Positions 18,619 to 24,416 of a stretch of 64,000 bases of DNA are shown here, piece after piece (within the stretch, counting starts at the first letter, position 1; each line of letters starts with the position of its first letter). The notes beneath the pieces were generated by a model. It worked only from the letters and a program-made list of their open reading frames with translations, searched no databases and was not told the DNA's origin. Made by a program: the position numbers and the translations under genes. Source of the DNA: Balneola sp. (GTDB taxonomy: Bacteria; Bacteroidota; Rhodothermia; Balneolales; Balneolaceae); assembly GCA_002694685.1 (NCBI GenBank), contig NZMW01000001.1, positions 620,001 through 684,000 of the forward strand, written 5' to 3'.

Positions 18619-18755
18619 GAAATAATATAAACTGACTATTTTTATTAACCATACAATTTAAGACATTTATGCGCCGTTTTATTTACTGTTAATAAATTCA
18701 GCAGTCTAAATACTGTCTATTGAGTCGGTACAAACAAATTAATCAGGGAAACAAT

Positions 18756-19625
18756 ATGAAATCTTCAAAACTATGGGTTGCCTTTCTTTCACTAATACTT
18801 CTGATTGGATTCACAGATAAAATCAATGCTCAAACAGACACTGACACCACAACATATCTGGTAATTAAGAATGACGGTTCAAGATATATTGGGCAAATAC
18901 TCTCTCAGGATTCCCGTGAAGTAGTGCTGCTCACCAAGGAGCTTGGCGAAATTGCTATTCCAAAGCACGAAATCAAAGAAATCAGAGAGCTAAGTACTGA
19001 TGAGGTAAATGAAGATGGTTCACTTAAAACCAGCAGTCCTTTCTCAACTCGTTATTATATAACAACGAACGCCCAGGCCGTCTCAAAGGGTGATAACTAC
19101 ATTATTTGGAATTTATATGGCCCTGATATTCAATTTGGAGTAAGTGATAATTTTGGAGTTGGACTAATGACCACTTGGTTTGGCTCACCAATTGTTGGCT
19201 CTGCAAAGTACAGTCTCGTTAATGATAAGAAAATAGGTGTAGCTGTAGGAACTCTATTGGGAACAGGGTCATGGGCTTCTCCTGAATACGGTATTGCGGT
19301 TCCATTTGGCTCTTTCACTTATGGAAGTATCGAAAAGAATGTATCCTTATCGCTTGGTTATGGAGCCGTCTTTGGACCCGGAAGCTCCGGCGGGTCGCCA
19401 CTGTTTTCACTGGCAGGCATTAATAGAGTGAGTGAGCGTGTAAGCTTGGTTTTTGACTCTTTTGTAGTAACAGAAGACAGTGAGGTGGCCGCATTGATAA
19501 TCCCTGCAATAAGATTACACTCAAGTCCGGAAAAAGCATTCCAAATTGGTTTTGCAGCCGTTGCTGCTGATGGAGAGCTATTACCAATGCCCTTCCCTTT
19601 TCTGCAATGGTTCAGGAAGTTGTAA
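18756..19625 (+). CDS. Secreted beta-barrel-like protein with N-terminal small domain (paralogue A)
   Basis: No named family recognised. From the ATG at 18756 it has 289 residues; a TTG 36 bases earlier is less likely because it would put a charged tail before the signal peptide. The signal peptide runs to about residue 26 (KINAQ). A small domain follows with the pattern DGSRYIGQILSQDSREVVLL and ELGEIAIPKHEIKEI. The rest is glycine-rich, amphipathic beta sequence like an outer-membrane barrel. It is clearly related along its length to the convergent gene at 19745-20638. Probable location: outer membrane. Confidence 0.75.
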   Translation: MKSSKLWVAFLSLILLIGFTDKINAQTDTDTTTYLVIKNDGSRYIGQILSQDSREVVLLTKELGEIAIPKHEIKEIRELSTDEVNEDGSLKTSSPFSTRYYITTNAQAVSKGDNYIIWNLYGPDIQFGVSDNFGVGLMTTWFGSPIVGSAKYSLVNDKKIGVAVGTLLGTGSWASPEYGIAVPFGSFTYGSIEKNVSLSLGYGAVFGPGSSGGSPLFSLAGINRVSERVSLVFDSFVVTEDSEVAALIIPAIRLHSSPEKAFQIGFAAVAADGELLPMPFPFLQWFRKL

Positions 19626-19669
19626 AAAGACCGCTCTAATGAATGAATCAAAGAATGGTTATGCCGCCT

Positions 19670-19693
19670 CGAGCAGATATTTACATCTGCTCG
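19670..19693. terminator. Hairpin between the convergent barrel genes
   Basis: CGAGCAGAT (19670-19678) and ATCTGCTCG (19685-19693) form a perfect 9-bp stem with a 6-base loop, 45 bases after one stop codon and 52 before the other. There is no T-run on either side, so it may act as a weak or bidirectional terminator or only protect 3' ends. Confidence 0.45.
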
Positions 19694-19744
19694 TTCTGCA
19701 TATAGCTAGCATCTTTACTGTCCAGATTTAAGAATAGTTGGGTT

Positions 19745-20638
19745 TTATTTACCAAAGGGTATTGCAACTCCCAGCCAAGGCACGCCAATAAATCCACCGC
19801 CTATGCTTTCTCCAACAACAAATGGCCGGATTAAACCAAAATCTACAGCAAAGTTCTCGGGCGCCCATCGTAAAGATCCTGACAATAAACCTACAGTTTC
19901 ACCACCAGACGAGACAAAGTAATTTTCGGATATCAAGTAGAGTTTTTTATTAATCCTATACATCCCGTTTAGGTTTATCAGTGGGATATCAGACCAATTT
20001 CCATCAGCATAGCCGTAGCCAATTCCTAAAGACACGTTATTGTCCCGGTTTCCGGCTGTAACCACTCCATAAGCCATTCCAAAACCGGAATCATCCTCTC
20101 CAACAACCGTCCCAAAAAGCCCCCCGGCCGCAACATGAAGTTTATCACTCGCTATAGGAATTGAAACCTTAGGCATTAACCAAAACGGAGTAGCTCCGGT
20201 CCCAAACAAAAATGTCGGAATAACACCTGCTCCCATTGAGAATTTATTCGTTAAACCATAGTTCACGTTATTGAAGAAAACCCAGGTATTCTGATAATAA
20301 CCTTCCCCTTTTTTCAACCCGATTGCATTCGTACTAAACAAATAGCGGGTGCTATGGGGATTCTCAAACCAGTAATCACCATCTTCCTTCAAATGCTTGG
20401 GATCAATGACTTCCATGCTTCTAATTCTATTCCGCTGTATGGTGATTTCCCCAAGATTTTCAGTGTCCAAAACTATTTCCTCAGCGTTTTCAGAAACAAT
20501 AGTCCCAATAAAAGTATTTCCATCTTTCGTTACGACGCGGTAGGTATTTACTTCTTGCTGTGCAAAGACCGGCTCAGTTATCAAAAGTGCAATCAGTGTG
20601 AATAGAAAGCAGCTGATGAGTAAGGTGAATTTTCTCAT
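19745..20638 (-). CDS. Secreted beta-barrel-like protein with N-terminal small domain (paralogue B)
   Basis: 297 residues with a clear signal peptide ending near VFAQQ (residue 28). The small domain reads DGNTFIGTIVSENAEEIVLD then NLGEITIQRNRIRSMEV, aligning with paralogue A without large gaps. Next come a Ser-Thr-Arg-Tyr motif (HSTRYLFSTNA; SFSTRYYITTNA-like in A) and a glycine-rich barrel-like region ending in hydrophobic residues. The family is unnamed to me. A spaced inverted repeat (20692-20700 / 20734-20742) lies upstream of the start and might be an operator. The convergent arrangement suggests an old inverted duplication. Confidence 0.75.
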   Translation of the reverse strand: MRKFTLLISCFLFTLIALLITEPVFAQQEVNTYRVVTKDGNTFIGTIVSENAEEIVLDTENLGEITIQRNRIRSMEVIDPKHLKEDGDYWFENPHSTRYLFSTNAIGLKKGEGYYQNTWVFFNNVNYGLTNKFSMGAGVIPTFLFGTGATPFWLMPKVSIPIASDKLHVAAGGLFGTVVGEDDSGFGMAYGVVTAGNRDNNVSLGIGYGYADGNWSDIPLINLNGMYRINKKLYLISENYFVSSGGETVGLLSGSLRWAPENFAVDFGLIRPFVVGESIGGGFIGVPWLGVAIPFGK

Positions 20639-20754: not shown

Positions 20755-21414
20755 CTATTTTTTTTGAATGATTGTAACTCCATCCCGTATCGGAAGCATC
20801 AACTGTTCAACCCGCTCATCTGAGGCTATTTCTTTATTGAAAGCATCCAATGCTATTGATTTATGGTCCTTAGGCTCCAAGACAAAGCCATCCCACAATA
20901 CATTATCGACCACTATTAACCCGCCTGTCTTAAGTAATGGCAACACCTTTTCAAAATAAAGTGAGTAGCTAAGCTTGTCTGCATCCATGAATACTAAATC
21001 AAACTCTCCATCAAGTTCAGTTACCAAATCCTGGGCGTTACCTTTTAGTAATTTAATTTTCTGATCCTTATCAAAACGCTTGAAATGCTCCTCAGCCAGC
21101 TCCTGATACAACAAATTCATTTCCAGAGTAATGACTTCCCCTCCCTCCGGCAAAGCTTCTGCAATCATCAGAGCTGAATACCCCGTAAATGTACCAATCT
21201 CCAAAACTCGCTTAGCTCCACTAATACGCACGAGCATTTTTAATAACTGACCTACTAAATTTCCACTCAGCATGTCGATATACTCTAATTCCTCACTAGA
21301 TGACGTAACAAGAGCTTTTATGCTTTCAGACTCCTGCGTGGTCATCTTACGTGCATATTCTTCTATCTTAGGATCCGTTATTTGAACGATCGATTGGTCT
21401 CTGTGCTTCTTCAT
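20755..21414 (-). CDS. Class I SAM-dependent O-methyltransferase (catechol-OMT-like)
   Basis: About 219 residues from the ATG at 21414; a GTG 18 bases upstream is possible but less likely. The SAM-binding core is seen: KRVLEIGTFTGYSALMIAEALP, then VITLEMN, then FDLVFMDADKLSY with the metal-binding Asp, and GGLIVVDNVLWDG. This is the PF01596 type, which methylates hydroxyl groups of catechols, phenols or related small molecules in a Mg2+-dependent way. The substrate is unknown. It is divergent, by 49 bp, from the acyltransferase of the carotenoid-type cluster, so a link to that cluster is possible but unproven. Confidence 0.88.
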   Translation of the reverse strand: MKKHRDQSIVQITDPKIEEYARKMTTQESESIKALVTSSSEELEYIDMLSGNLVGQLLKMLVRISGAKRVLEIGTFTGYSALMIAEALPEGGEVITLEMNLLYQELAEEHFKRFDKDQKIKLLKGNAQDLVTELDGEFDLVFMDADKLSYSLYFEKVLPLLKTGGLIVVDNVLWDGFVLEPKDHKSIALDAFNKEIASDERVEQLMLPIRDGVTIIQKK

Positions 21415-21463
21415 GATTGAAAGATAAGGCACAACACCCTATTATCACCAAAAAAAGAAAGCA

Positions 21464-22129
21464 TTGAATATCATACCTGCCGACGAATCTCGCTTTTTCA
21501 TCTGGTTTTTTGACCAATATACCCGCTGGTCGCTAAAGAGACGTTTTAATCAAATATGGGTGAAACAGGGATATCACCCCACTTCGGCTTCCAAGACGGT
21601 TTATTTCTTAAACCATAATCTTTGGTGGGATGGCTTGATTCCGCTTTATCTGAATCGCAATTTCTTCAAGCAAAAAGCCCGGGCTTTGATGGAAGATAAA
21701 CAGATGAGACAGTATACATTCTTCAGTAAAATCGGAGCTTTTTCAATTAACCTTGAAGATCCTAAAGCCTCTATTTCTTCTTTGCGTTATGCGGTTGAGT
21801 CTATGGAAAGAGACAACTCATCTTTGTTCATTTACCCGGAAGGATCTATAACTCCACCCTCCGAATCAGCTCCAAATTTCAAAGACGGGCTCGCCTGGAT
21901 TTACACCAAAACCGAGCAAGTCGACTTTGTACCCATTCATATTTACGCCCACTTCATGAATGGCAGTAAACCGGAGCTATATTTATCAATAGGAGAATCA
22001 GTTAATCATGATAAATCACTAAGCAGGAATGAATTAACAAAATTATTTGAAGAAGATATTCAGCAAATTAACACCCAAACAAGAGCTGTAGCTGGAATCT
22101 CTGAAGAGGGCTTTGAAGCTCAATTTTAG
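21464..22129 (+). CDS. PlsC-type acyltransferase, candidate carotenoid glycoside acyltransferase (CruD-like)
   Basis: A 221-residue 1-acylglycerol-phosphate acyltransferase-fold protein. Motif I is NHNLWWDG, giving the catalytic His51 and Asp56 (HX4D); motif III is FIYPEGS (about residues 122-128). The family transfers fatty acyl groups to hydroxyls. Here the neighbours are a CrtC-type hydratase and a GT2 enzyme, as in the chlorobactene glucoside laurate pathway of green sulfur bacteria, where CruD is the acyltransferase. The role as CruD is inferred from context. The start is TTG at 21464. It converges on the crtC-like gene with 15 bases between. Confidence 0.8.
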   Translation: MNIIPADESRFFIWFFDQYTRWSLKRRFNQIWVKQGYHPTSASKTVYFLNHNLWWDGLIPLYLNRNFFKQKARALMEDKQMRQYTFFSKIGAFSINLEDPKASISSLRYAVESMERDNSSLFIYPEGSITPPSESAPNFKDGLAWIYTKTEQVDFVPIHIYAHFMNGSKPELYLSIGESVNHDKSLSRNELTKLFEEDIQQINTQTRAVAGISEEGFEAQF

Positions 22130-22144
22130 CCTAAATAATTAAGG

Positions 22145-23212
22145 TTACCATGTCCACGGGTACATCAGCCTTGATTTTTGCACCCAATGTGGCTGCTCAT
22201 CCATATACCTGAGTCGCATATGCACCAGAGGCCAGTACACTCTTGAGTATATATTTTCGGGATATATAAACTCTGAAATACCATGTGCTGCATGAACTTG
22301 ACTGTTGTACTTAATTATTGAATTACCCAAGAAACGCTGATAGAAAGGGCCATCATCTATTTTAGATTTACATTGAATATTTACTGATACTTGTCCTGCT
22401 TTTAAATCTATTTTCCGGGCAGAATTCAAGCCAAACCAATTTCTCGTAAAATAGTCGAGATCTGCCTCTTTAAAATGCTCCATCACCTTTTGATTTGCAC
22501 GGTCTATCATCCATCCCTCAAACTGAGTTTGCTCGTGCTTTTGCATGAGGTAATAGACAAAGGTGAAGTCTTCAAAATGGTACCTTCCCCAATACCAATC
22601 CCGGAAACTTTCTTTCATTGGTTCATGCCCGGTATTATGATCATGGTATCCCGAACCTTCAAAACGAAACTCCTCTTCCCCATGGATACCATCCACATCA
22701 AAAAAAACAGAAACATCAGTTCGTGGCTGTATCAAATTCCAGATATGCCGGTCTGTACTTTCGGAAGTGATTAGATCCGGCTTTGTTCTGTTCCCCTGCC
22801 CTTTGATCTCTCCTTTTATAGAATGACCAGATGCTAACTTCTGATCTAGCTTTATATTGAACTCGAACTCATTCCCTTTACCTGAGTACTGCACAGTATC
22901 GTTACCGACCTTCAATTCAGGTTTATTGTTATCCCAGGAAAATTCCCCTTCATCAAATTCCAGAAAGCTGTAGTAGATGGTCTTTCCATTTTTGTAGAGA
23001 GAAACGCTTATAGCGGGATATGCGTCCTGTAGGGCTTTTTCTGCCTCTAAGTCGTTAATGTATCTCGTTGAGAATGGATTATGTTCATAGAAGATGATCA
23101 CATAACCAAAGTTTCCATCAGCACTTAATCCATCAAAGTACCACCACTCATAGCCACCGAACGACTTTTTGAAATCTGGAGTTATGTGCCTTTCATCTGT
23201 AGATATATTCAT
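22145..23212 (-). CDS. crtC: Carotenoid 1,2-hydratase (CrtC-type)
   Basis: A 355-residue protein of the CrtC/AttH lipocalin-like family. Recognisable marks are YEWWYFDG near the N-terminus (about residues 22-29) and GYHDHNTGHEPM then DWYWGRYHFEDF in the middle, the conserved acidic and His residues of the hydratase. CrtC adds water across the terminal C-1,2 double bond of acyclic or monocyclic carotenoids, making a tertiary alcohol that can be glycosylated. No signal peptide is evident. The start is ATG at 23212 rather than the TTG two codons before. It is divergent by 58 bp from the GT2 gene and convergent with the acyltransferase gene. Confidence 0.85.
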   Translation of the reverse strand: MNISTDERHITPDFKKSFGGYEWWYFDGLSADGNFGYVIIFYEHNPFSTRYINDLEAEKALQDAYPAISVSLYKNGKTIYYSFLEFDEGEFSWDNNKPELKVGNDTVQYSGKGNEFEFNIKLDQKLASGHSIKGEIKGQGNRTKPDLITSESTDRHIWNLIQPRTDVSVFFDVDGIHGEEEFRFEGSGYHDHNTGHEPMKESFRDWYWGRYHFEDFTFVYYLMQKHEQTQFEGWMIDRANQKVMEHFKEADLDYFTRNWFGLNSARKIDLKAGQVSVNIQCKSKIDDGPFYQRFLGNSIIKYNSQVHAAHGISEFIYPENIYSRVYWPLVHMRLRYMDEQPHWVQKSRLMYPWTW

Positions 23213-23270
23213 ACTCAAATAAACTAATCGTGTTGGTGAACGGCAACGCTCTGTTTACTAACTTTCGTTC

Positions 23271-24416
23271 ATGGAAATCTTTCTTTACATAGCAGCCAGC
23301 TACATTGGATTCACTCTTTTTGTATTTACAAGGAATTGGTTTGAGTTTAAATCACTGTCTGATCAACCACATTTTACTTCCGAAAAAGCAACGCCATTGG
23401 TCAGTATTTGCATTCCGGCTCGTAACGAGGAGGCTGTCATAGATCAGTGTGTGACTTATGCCCTTAAACAAGATTACCCCAATTTTGAAGTTTTGGTGCT
23501 GGATGATAACTCAACAGATGGAACTACAGAAATTCTGGAAGAGCTTTCAGGAATCATCAACAACCTGCACCACCTCAAAGGCAAGCCTAAGCCTGATGAA
23601 TGGCTTGGAAAGCCATGGGCCTGCCATCAGCTAAGCAAACACGCCAGTGGGGAGTATTTAGTTTTTATTGATGCCGATGTTTGGTTAGAAGAGCATGCGA
23701 TCAGCAAGGCTATCCATGCCCTACAAAACTCAAATGCCATTACCGTTTGGCCCAAGCAAGCTGTAGAAACCTTTTGGGAAAAGTTGATTATCCCCATGAT
23801 TTATTATGGACTCTATTCTCTCCTCCCTGCGAAATATGTTGAGCAGAGCCCAAAATGGTTGCCCCAGAATCTTAGAAAAAAGATGGCTCCTCAGTTCGCA
23901 GCTGCATGTGGACAGTTTATAGCCTTCACAAAAAACGCTTATGAAACCATTGATGGACATACTTCCGTGAAACAAGAAATTGTGGAAGATGTTGAGCTCT
24001 CTAAAACAATAAAGCGGAACGGGCTGTCAATTACCATGTATGATGGAGTCGACACCGTAAACTGCCGGATGTATCAAAATCATTCTGATATTTTCGAGGG
24101 ACTCCGAAAAAACTTCTTTGTTGGCTTTGGCCGAAATGTACCGCTCTTTCTTTTCATGGCGACTATGCAAGTCATCACATTTATACTTCCGGTCATCTTT
24201 CTTTTCATTGGAAATTCATTTGTTCAAACCTTATCTGCTGCTCTCATAGGTGTATTCCTGATACAGCGCTGGCTGATGGATTATAGGTTTGGCTGGAATC
24301 CTTTTGTAAGCCTGCTTCAACCTTTAACCATCCTTTGGTATGAAGTATTAGGTATACGTTGTCTATGGGATCATTTCACCGGAAAAAAGGCAACCTGGAA
24401 AGGGCGTGAAGTCTGA
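23271..24416 (+). CDS. GT2 family membrane glycosyltransferase, candidate carotenoid glucosyltransferase (CruC-like)
   Basis: A 381-residue protein with an N-terminal helix (1-20), a GT2 catalytic domain and three or four C-terminal membrane helices (about 290-360). Catalytic marks: SICIPARNEE, VLDDNSTDGT, the DXD motif DAD at 134-136 in FIDADVW, and QEIVEDVELSK, which holds the ED catalytic base region. CGQFIAFTKNAYETIDGH is typical of CruC/CrtQ-like enzymes. The context with a CrtC-type hydratase and an acyltransferase suggests it puts glucose on the hydroxyl made by the hydratase. The donor and acceptor are inferred. Confidence 0.8.
   Translation: MEIFLYIAASYIGFTLFVFTRNWFEFKSLSDQPHFTSEKATPLVSICIPARNEEAVIDQCVTYALKQDYPNFEVLVLDDNSTDGTTEILEELSGIINNLHHLKGKPKPDEWLGKPWACHQLSKHASGEYLVFIDADVWLEEHAISKAIHALQNSNAITVWPKQAVETFWEKLIIPMIYYGLYSLLPAKYVEQSPKWLPQNLRKKMAPQFAAACGQFIAFTKNAYETIDGHTSVKQEIVEDVELSKTIKRNGLSITMYDGVDTVNCRMYQNHSDIFEGLRKNFFVGFGRNVPLFLFMATMQVITFILPVIFLFIGNSFVQTLSAALIGVFLIQRWLMDYRFGWNPFVSLLQPLTILWYEVLGIRCLWDHFTGKKATWKGREV

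Follow-up and report, generated by a model that had tools for sequence, protein, structure and literature searches.

A putative locus for carotenoid end-group tailoring in a Balneola genome

Genes of the locus and their assignment

We analysed a window of 64,000 nucleotides (C1:620001-684000) from the 3.95-Mb genome of Balneola sp., which is 99.7% complete and has Gracilimonas sp. and G. amylolytica as its nearest named relatives. A preliminary description had proposed a carotenoid hydratase, a glycosyltransferase, an acyltransferase and an O-methyltransferase side by side, and all four open reading frames were found as described, each matched by a family profile. From left to right they encode a catechol-type O-methyltransferase (20755-21432, minus strand, 225 amino acids (aa); PF01596, E = 1.6e-57), a CruD-type acyltransferase of the PlsC/LPLAT fold (21464-22129, plus strand, 221 aa; PF01553, E = 2e-8), a CrtC-type carotenoid 1,2-hydratase (22145-23212, minus strand; NF045922, E = 1.5e-15), and a CruC-type family-2 glycosyltransferase (GT2; 23271-24416, plus strand, 381 aa; PF00535, E = 7e-28). 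The genes had been said to alternate in strand. The strands do differ, and the arrangement is better described as two divergent pairs, CrtC/GT2 with 58 bp between the start codons (23213-23270) and O-methyltransferase/acyltransferase with ∼30 bp, the middle members being convergent. The 58-bp gap is likely a shared promoter region. In a weak test on nine short sequences, the divergent gaps showed no -33/-7 promoter of the Bacteroidota type, and the scattered crt genes showed no common operator motif. The longest CrtC frame (22145-23218, minus strand) starts at TTG 23218, and the ATG at 23212 is a better fit to the start of C. tepidum CrtC. For comparison with that green sulfur bacterium we used the reference genome G114, which we take to be C. 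tepidum, its CrtC adjoining Rieske/cytochrome b-like genes as does crtC CT0301.

Alanine mutants of His239, Trp241, Tyr266, and Asp268 abolished the activity of Rubrivivax CrtC (PMC4717167), and Trp283 and Trp285 are conserved residues of the CrtC cavity (PMC12402844). Alignment with R. litoralis CrtC, together with a D-to-W spacing of 15, showed that the window CrtC keeps all four essential residues (H158, W160, Y191, and D193, respectively) and that its W208 and W210 correspond to the two cavity tryptophans. Among 26 relatives, the most distant of which is 21% identical, the four essential residues are invariant or at least 90% conserved, and all six positions are invariant or nearly so. The structural model (predicted local distance difference test score, pLDDT, 92.7) shows a double beta-barrel fold, in agreement with the published two-barrel model of CrtC (PMC12402844). 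Its best PDB matches were the fungal Diels-Alderases Fsa2, Phm7, and CghA, and kievitone hydratase; a sequence search of the PDB with the same protein gave no match. The NF045922 score was 57.3 bits for the window protein vs. 38.6 bits for C. tepidum CrtC; both lie below the cut-off of 400, which is suited to purple bacteria. Since the C. tepidum enzyme scores below the window protein, profile cut-offs are not decisive for CrtC. Homologues on plasmids, 22-26% identical, adjoin crtD and carry the annotation carotenoid 1,2-hydratase. Essential residues and modelled fold both back the proposed CrtC-type hydratase.

The Pfam family that bears the name CrtC, PF07143, was not kept as a criterion, since it misses the CrtCs of the window, C. 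tepidum, and R. litoralis. Its match in the Balneola genome is a different protein (C4:139664-140221), a naming trap for automatic annotation. CrtC homologues were also seen in Acidobacteriota (27-31% identity) and Phycisphaerales (about 21-23%) (loci L118, L119, L121, L126, L127, L132, and L137), and three of those from Phycisphaerales have crtB nearby.

Over 387 aligned columns the GT2 shares 38% identity with C. tepidum CruC (E = 1e-83); it carries the motifs DDNS and DADV and gives the same profile pattern as CruC, with HpnB first and then CruG. The acyltransferase, which carries an HX4D motif (NHNLWWD) and a YPEGS block, is 29.5% identical over 183 aa (E = 4e-23) to a CruD candidate that is the only acyltransferase match at E ≤ 1e-12 in the C. 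tepidum reference genome. From the positions expected from the gene numbers, we infer that these two matches, the only strong ones to the GT2 and the acyltransferase in that genome, are cruC (CT1987) and cruD (CT0967). In the GT2 tree the Balneolales proteins formed one clade (100/99) among CruC and the GT2s of crt clusters, with staphylococcal CrtQ outside and the Thermus GT2 on a long branch. The acyltransferase homologues likewise formed one clade (99/97), far from the genome's own PlsC. Neither tree resolved the deep order of the CruC/CruD, crt-cluster, and Balneolales clades. The two enzymes do not fall into unrelated branches; they group with CruC, CruD, and crt-cluster homologues of Bacteroidota. 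A CruC-like GT2 (identity, motifs, and tree) and a PlsC-type acyltransferase (PF01553, HX4D, and tree), here placed as CruD-type, are in keeping with the preliminary description. The GT2 is predicted to glucosylate a 1'-hydroxyl and the acyltransferase to acylate the carotenoid-bound sugar.

Linkage in relatives and the rest of the pathway

Almost all of the 20 Balneolales loci compared, from three families, share the gene order O-methyltransferase, acyltransferase, CrtC, GT2, xerC, hprK. By match coordinates, every one of the 41 Balneolales genomes that contain CrtC has it head-to-head with the GT2, and the acyltransferase lies at ≤3 kb from CrtC in 32 of them, so the adjacency is conserved in relatives. 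The head-to-head arrangement was also found in other Bacteroidota families (L096, L146-L148, L150, and L151) and in two Armatimonadota contigs (L129 and L133). Adjacency in Balneolales alone is weaker evidence than this recurrence in other groups, because the order is partly general synteny with xerC and hprK.

We sampled 17 Bacteroidota loci with a GT2 homologue and no CrtC match, nearly all with an adjacent acyltransferase. A CruF homologue (PF04240) adjoins the GT2 in 15 of these (profile-confirmed in five), and most are full clusters of the order crtI-crtB-crtYcd-crtD-acyltransferase-GT2-cruF, often followed by a fatty-acid-desaturase-like gene. The partner of the acyltransferase-GT2 pair is CrtC in Balneolales and certain other groups; elsewhere it is CruF, an unrelated protein. 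Because the pair sits inside crt clusters beside CruF, its link to carotenoids is independent of annotation. The crt clusters of Thermus and Azospirillum also contain an acyltransferase-glycosyltransferase pair. As an observation in its own right, the CruF clusters (L080-L094 and L098) imply that the ability to make acylated carotenoid glycosides is widespread in Bacteroidota.

Single family searches of the Balneola genome located crtB (C1:511639), crtI (C17:33715), a CrtD-like desaturase that is a crtI paralogue (C1:278447), a CrtY-type cyclase (C4:713167; PF05834, 173 bits, below the NCBIfam cut-off), and a CrtO-like ketolase (C1:192198; 385 bits against a cut-off of 1000). No CrtYcd cyclase and no CruF were found in this genome. 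The carotenoid backbone genes that the preliminary description had left to be looked for (crtB, crtI, and a cyclase) are thus present outside the locus.

The same contig encodes a xanthorhodopsin-type pump (C1:746429-747115), ∼62 kb to the right of the window and beside blh (beta-carotene dioxygenase). In the PDB it matched Salinibacter xanthorhodopsin 3DDL best (315 bits), a DTE motif was read by eye, and a glycine is kept at 156 (3DDL numbering), the fenestration and carotenoid-contact position at the carotenoid-side opening of xanthorhodopsin. The pump is a candidate user of the pigment predicted for the locus.

Proposed pathway and alternatives

We consider it highly probable that these genes form a conserved locus for carotenoid end-group tailoring, by hydration, glycosylation, and acylation of a gamma-carotene-type pigment. 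The C. tepidum controls, the linkage, and the backbone genes support the carotenoid glycoside-ester pathway that had been suggested. The substrates, step order, sugar, acyl chain, reactions, and product of the following scheme are what we infer from the sequences, catalytic residues, predicted fold, linkage, and backbone genes. On a monocyclic carotenoid of the gamma-carotene type, CrtC would protonate and hydrate the terminal double bond (C1',2') to give a tertiary 1'-hydroxyl, onto which the GT2 would move a hexose from an activated sugar. The PlsC-like acyltransferase would then attach a cellular fatty acid to this sugar as an ester. Given the CrtD-like and CrtO-like enzymes encoded outside the locus, the end product is expected to be salinixanthin-like (4-keto, 1'-acylglucosyl), perhaps lacking the 2'-hydroxyl.

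Several observations weigh against this assignment. CrtC shares only about 27-30% identity with proven enzymes, and the identities of the GT2 to CruC and of the acyltransferase to CruD are low as well. The backbone crt genes are scattered, and the locus has no physical linkage to them in its own genome. The acyltransferase is sited elsewhere in 9 of the 41 Balneolales genomes (genus g8; G178, G213, and G031). Another Balneolales genome (G290, locus L095) has GT2, acyltransferase, and O-methyltransferase together; CrtC has no match anywhere in it, and no CruF lies in the neighbourhood. In the literature we found neither pigment chemistry nor an enzyme assay for any Gracilimonas.

Some of these points would suit a locus in which CrtC and GT2 are carotenoid-active and the acyltransferase has phospholipids or another glycolipid as its substrate, the product being a free carotenoid glycoside. 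The modest identity of the acyltransferase to its reference and its separation from CrtC in the nine genomes, usually beside the O-methyltransferase, speak for such a division. However, many Bacteroidota have its homologues next to the GT2 homologue within crt clusters, and in the tree it lies far from the genome's own PlsC; we regard a free glycoside as unlikely. It is less probable still that the locus glycosylates a non-carotenoid isoprenoid such as a hopanoid, with an HpnB-like GT2 and a CrtC-like hydratase of another terpene. HpnB is indeed the best NCBIfam match of the GT2 (162.8 bits), and the CrtC fold superfamily includes non-carotenoid enzymes, but the GT2 scores far under the HpnB cut-off, C. 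tepidum CruC is also HpnB-first, and homologues sit in crt operons.

The O-methyltransferase had been noted as an unexplained extra. It is probably a neighbour outside the pathway, because its homologues occur in 179 of 296 Bacteroidota genomes, many of which lack CrtC, and are common where there is no carotenoid tailoring; the homologues listed include none from the Chlorobiaceae-like family f23. A role as a fourth enzyme, with the sugar or a carotenoid hydroxyl as its methylation target, would extend the glycoside-ester pathway, not replace it. The gene adjoins the acyltransferase as a divergent pair in most Balneolales (20755-22129 in the window), and when the acyltransferase leaves CrtC the two usually remain adjacent (e.g. 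L157). Against this, homologues occur in Bacteroidota without CrtC, GT2, or acyltransferase, the gene is absent from the crt clusters of other Bacteroidota, and CrtF, the known carotenoid methylase, belongs to a different family. We therefore hold a fourth step to be improbable. On its far side, two paralogous secreted or outer-membrane-like proteins of ∼300 aa (18720-20638), with no Pfam match, separate the O-methyltransferase from a GT1 gene; their presence varies within the genus.

Returning to the carotenoid glycoside ester, this bacterium very probably makes an acylated sugar carotenoid of a known kind, and the pigment possibly serves its rhodopsin as a light antenna. Salinixanthin is the antenna of Salinibacter xanthorhodopsin (PMC13093654). 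We put forward only tentatively that the Balneolales locus makes a salinixanthin-like acyl-glucosyl keto-carotenoid as antenna of its own xanthorhodopsin, by way of a CrtC that Rhodothermus and, judging from our searches, probably Salinibacter lack. The pairing of a pigment locus with an antenna-competent rhodopsin raises a specific question that is cheap to test, namely whether light captured by the pigment is passed on to the pump. A locus conserved across the whole order is now assigned to the synthesis of carotenoid glucoside esters; the literature searched contained no genetics of this process for the group. Across Bacteroidota, the same glycosyltransferase-acyltransferase pair goes with either of two unrelated hydratases, CrtC in some lineages and CruF in others.

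Comparison with known systems

The cluster of Thermus thermophilus and the staphylococcal CrtQ/CrtO system resemble the window in that crt genes are clustered with a GT2 and an acyltransferase. They differ in their backbones, in the lack of CrtC, and in GT2s that are more distant in the tree. The CruF clusters of Bacteroidota share with the window an acyltransferase-GT2 pair that adjoins a 1,2-hydratase gene; there, however, the hydratase is the unrelated CruF, and one cluster holds the backbone genes as well.

The pathway to salinixanthin in Salinibacter ruber and Rhodothermus marinus is like the one proposed here in its expected product type, a monocyclic keto-carotenoid acyl glucoside. It has crtB, crtI, crtY-type, and crtO-like genes in common with the window genome, and S. 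ruber, too, has a xanthorhodopsin-type pump. R. marinus, for which acyl-hexose fragments of m/z 341/359 are reported, makes salinixanthin with neither a CrtC nor a CruF homologue (PMC5822342), and no CrtC match was found in any Rhodothermales-side genome searched. GT2 homologues from the Rhodothermales side matched at E of about 1e-26 to 1e-49, vs. about 1e-58 to 1e-73 for those of Chlorobiaceae. The parallel with Salinibacter drawn in the preliminary description therefore holds as a chemical likeness and not as a genetic one.

The parallel with green sulfur bacteria fared better, as the C. tepidum CrtC, CruC, and CruD controls support orthology. In C. tepidum the three enzymes act in that order (PMC6166724), giving the glucoside laurates of OH-chlorobactene and OH-gamma-carotene. 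Homologous proteins of the window are predicted to supply the same three activities, with catalytic residues and a profile-score pattern in common. No chlorobactene (aryl-ring) route like that of C. tepidum was seen in the window genome, although no search was aimed at one. The three genes lie far apart in C. tepidum (at about 312, 911, and 1885 kb), whereas in the window they are contiguous.

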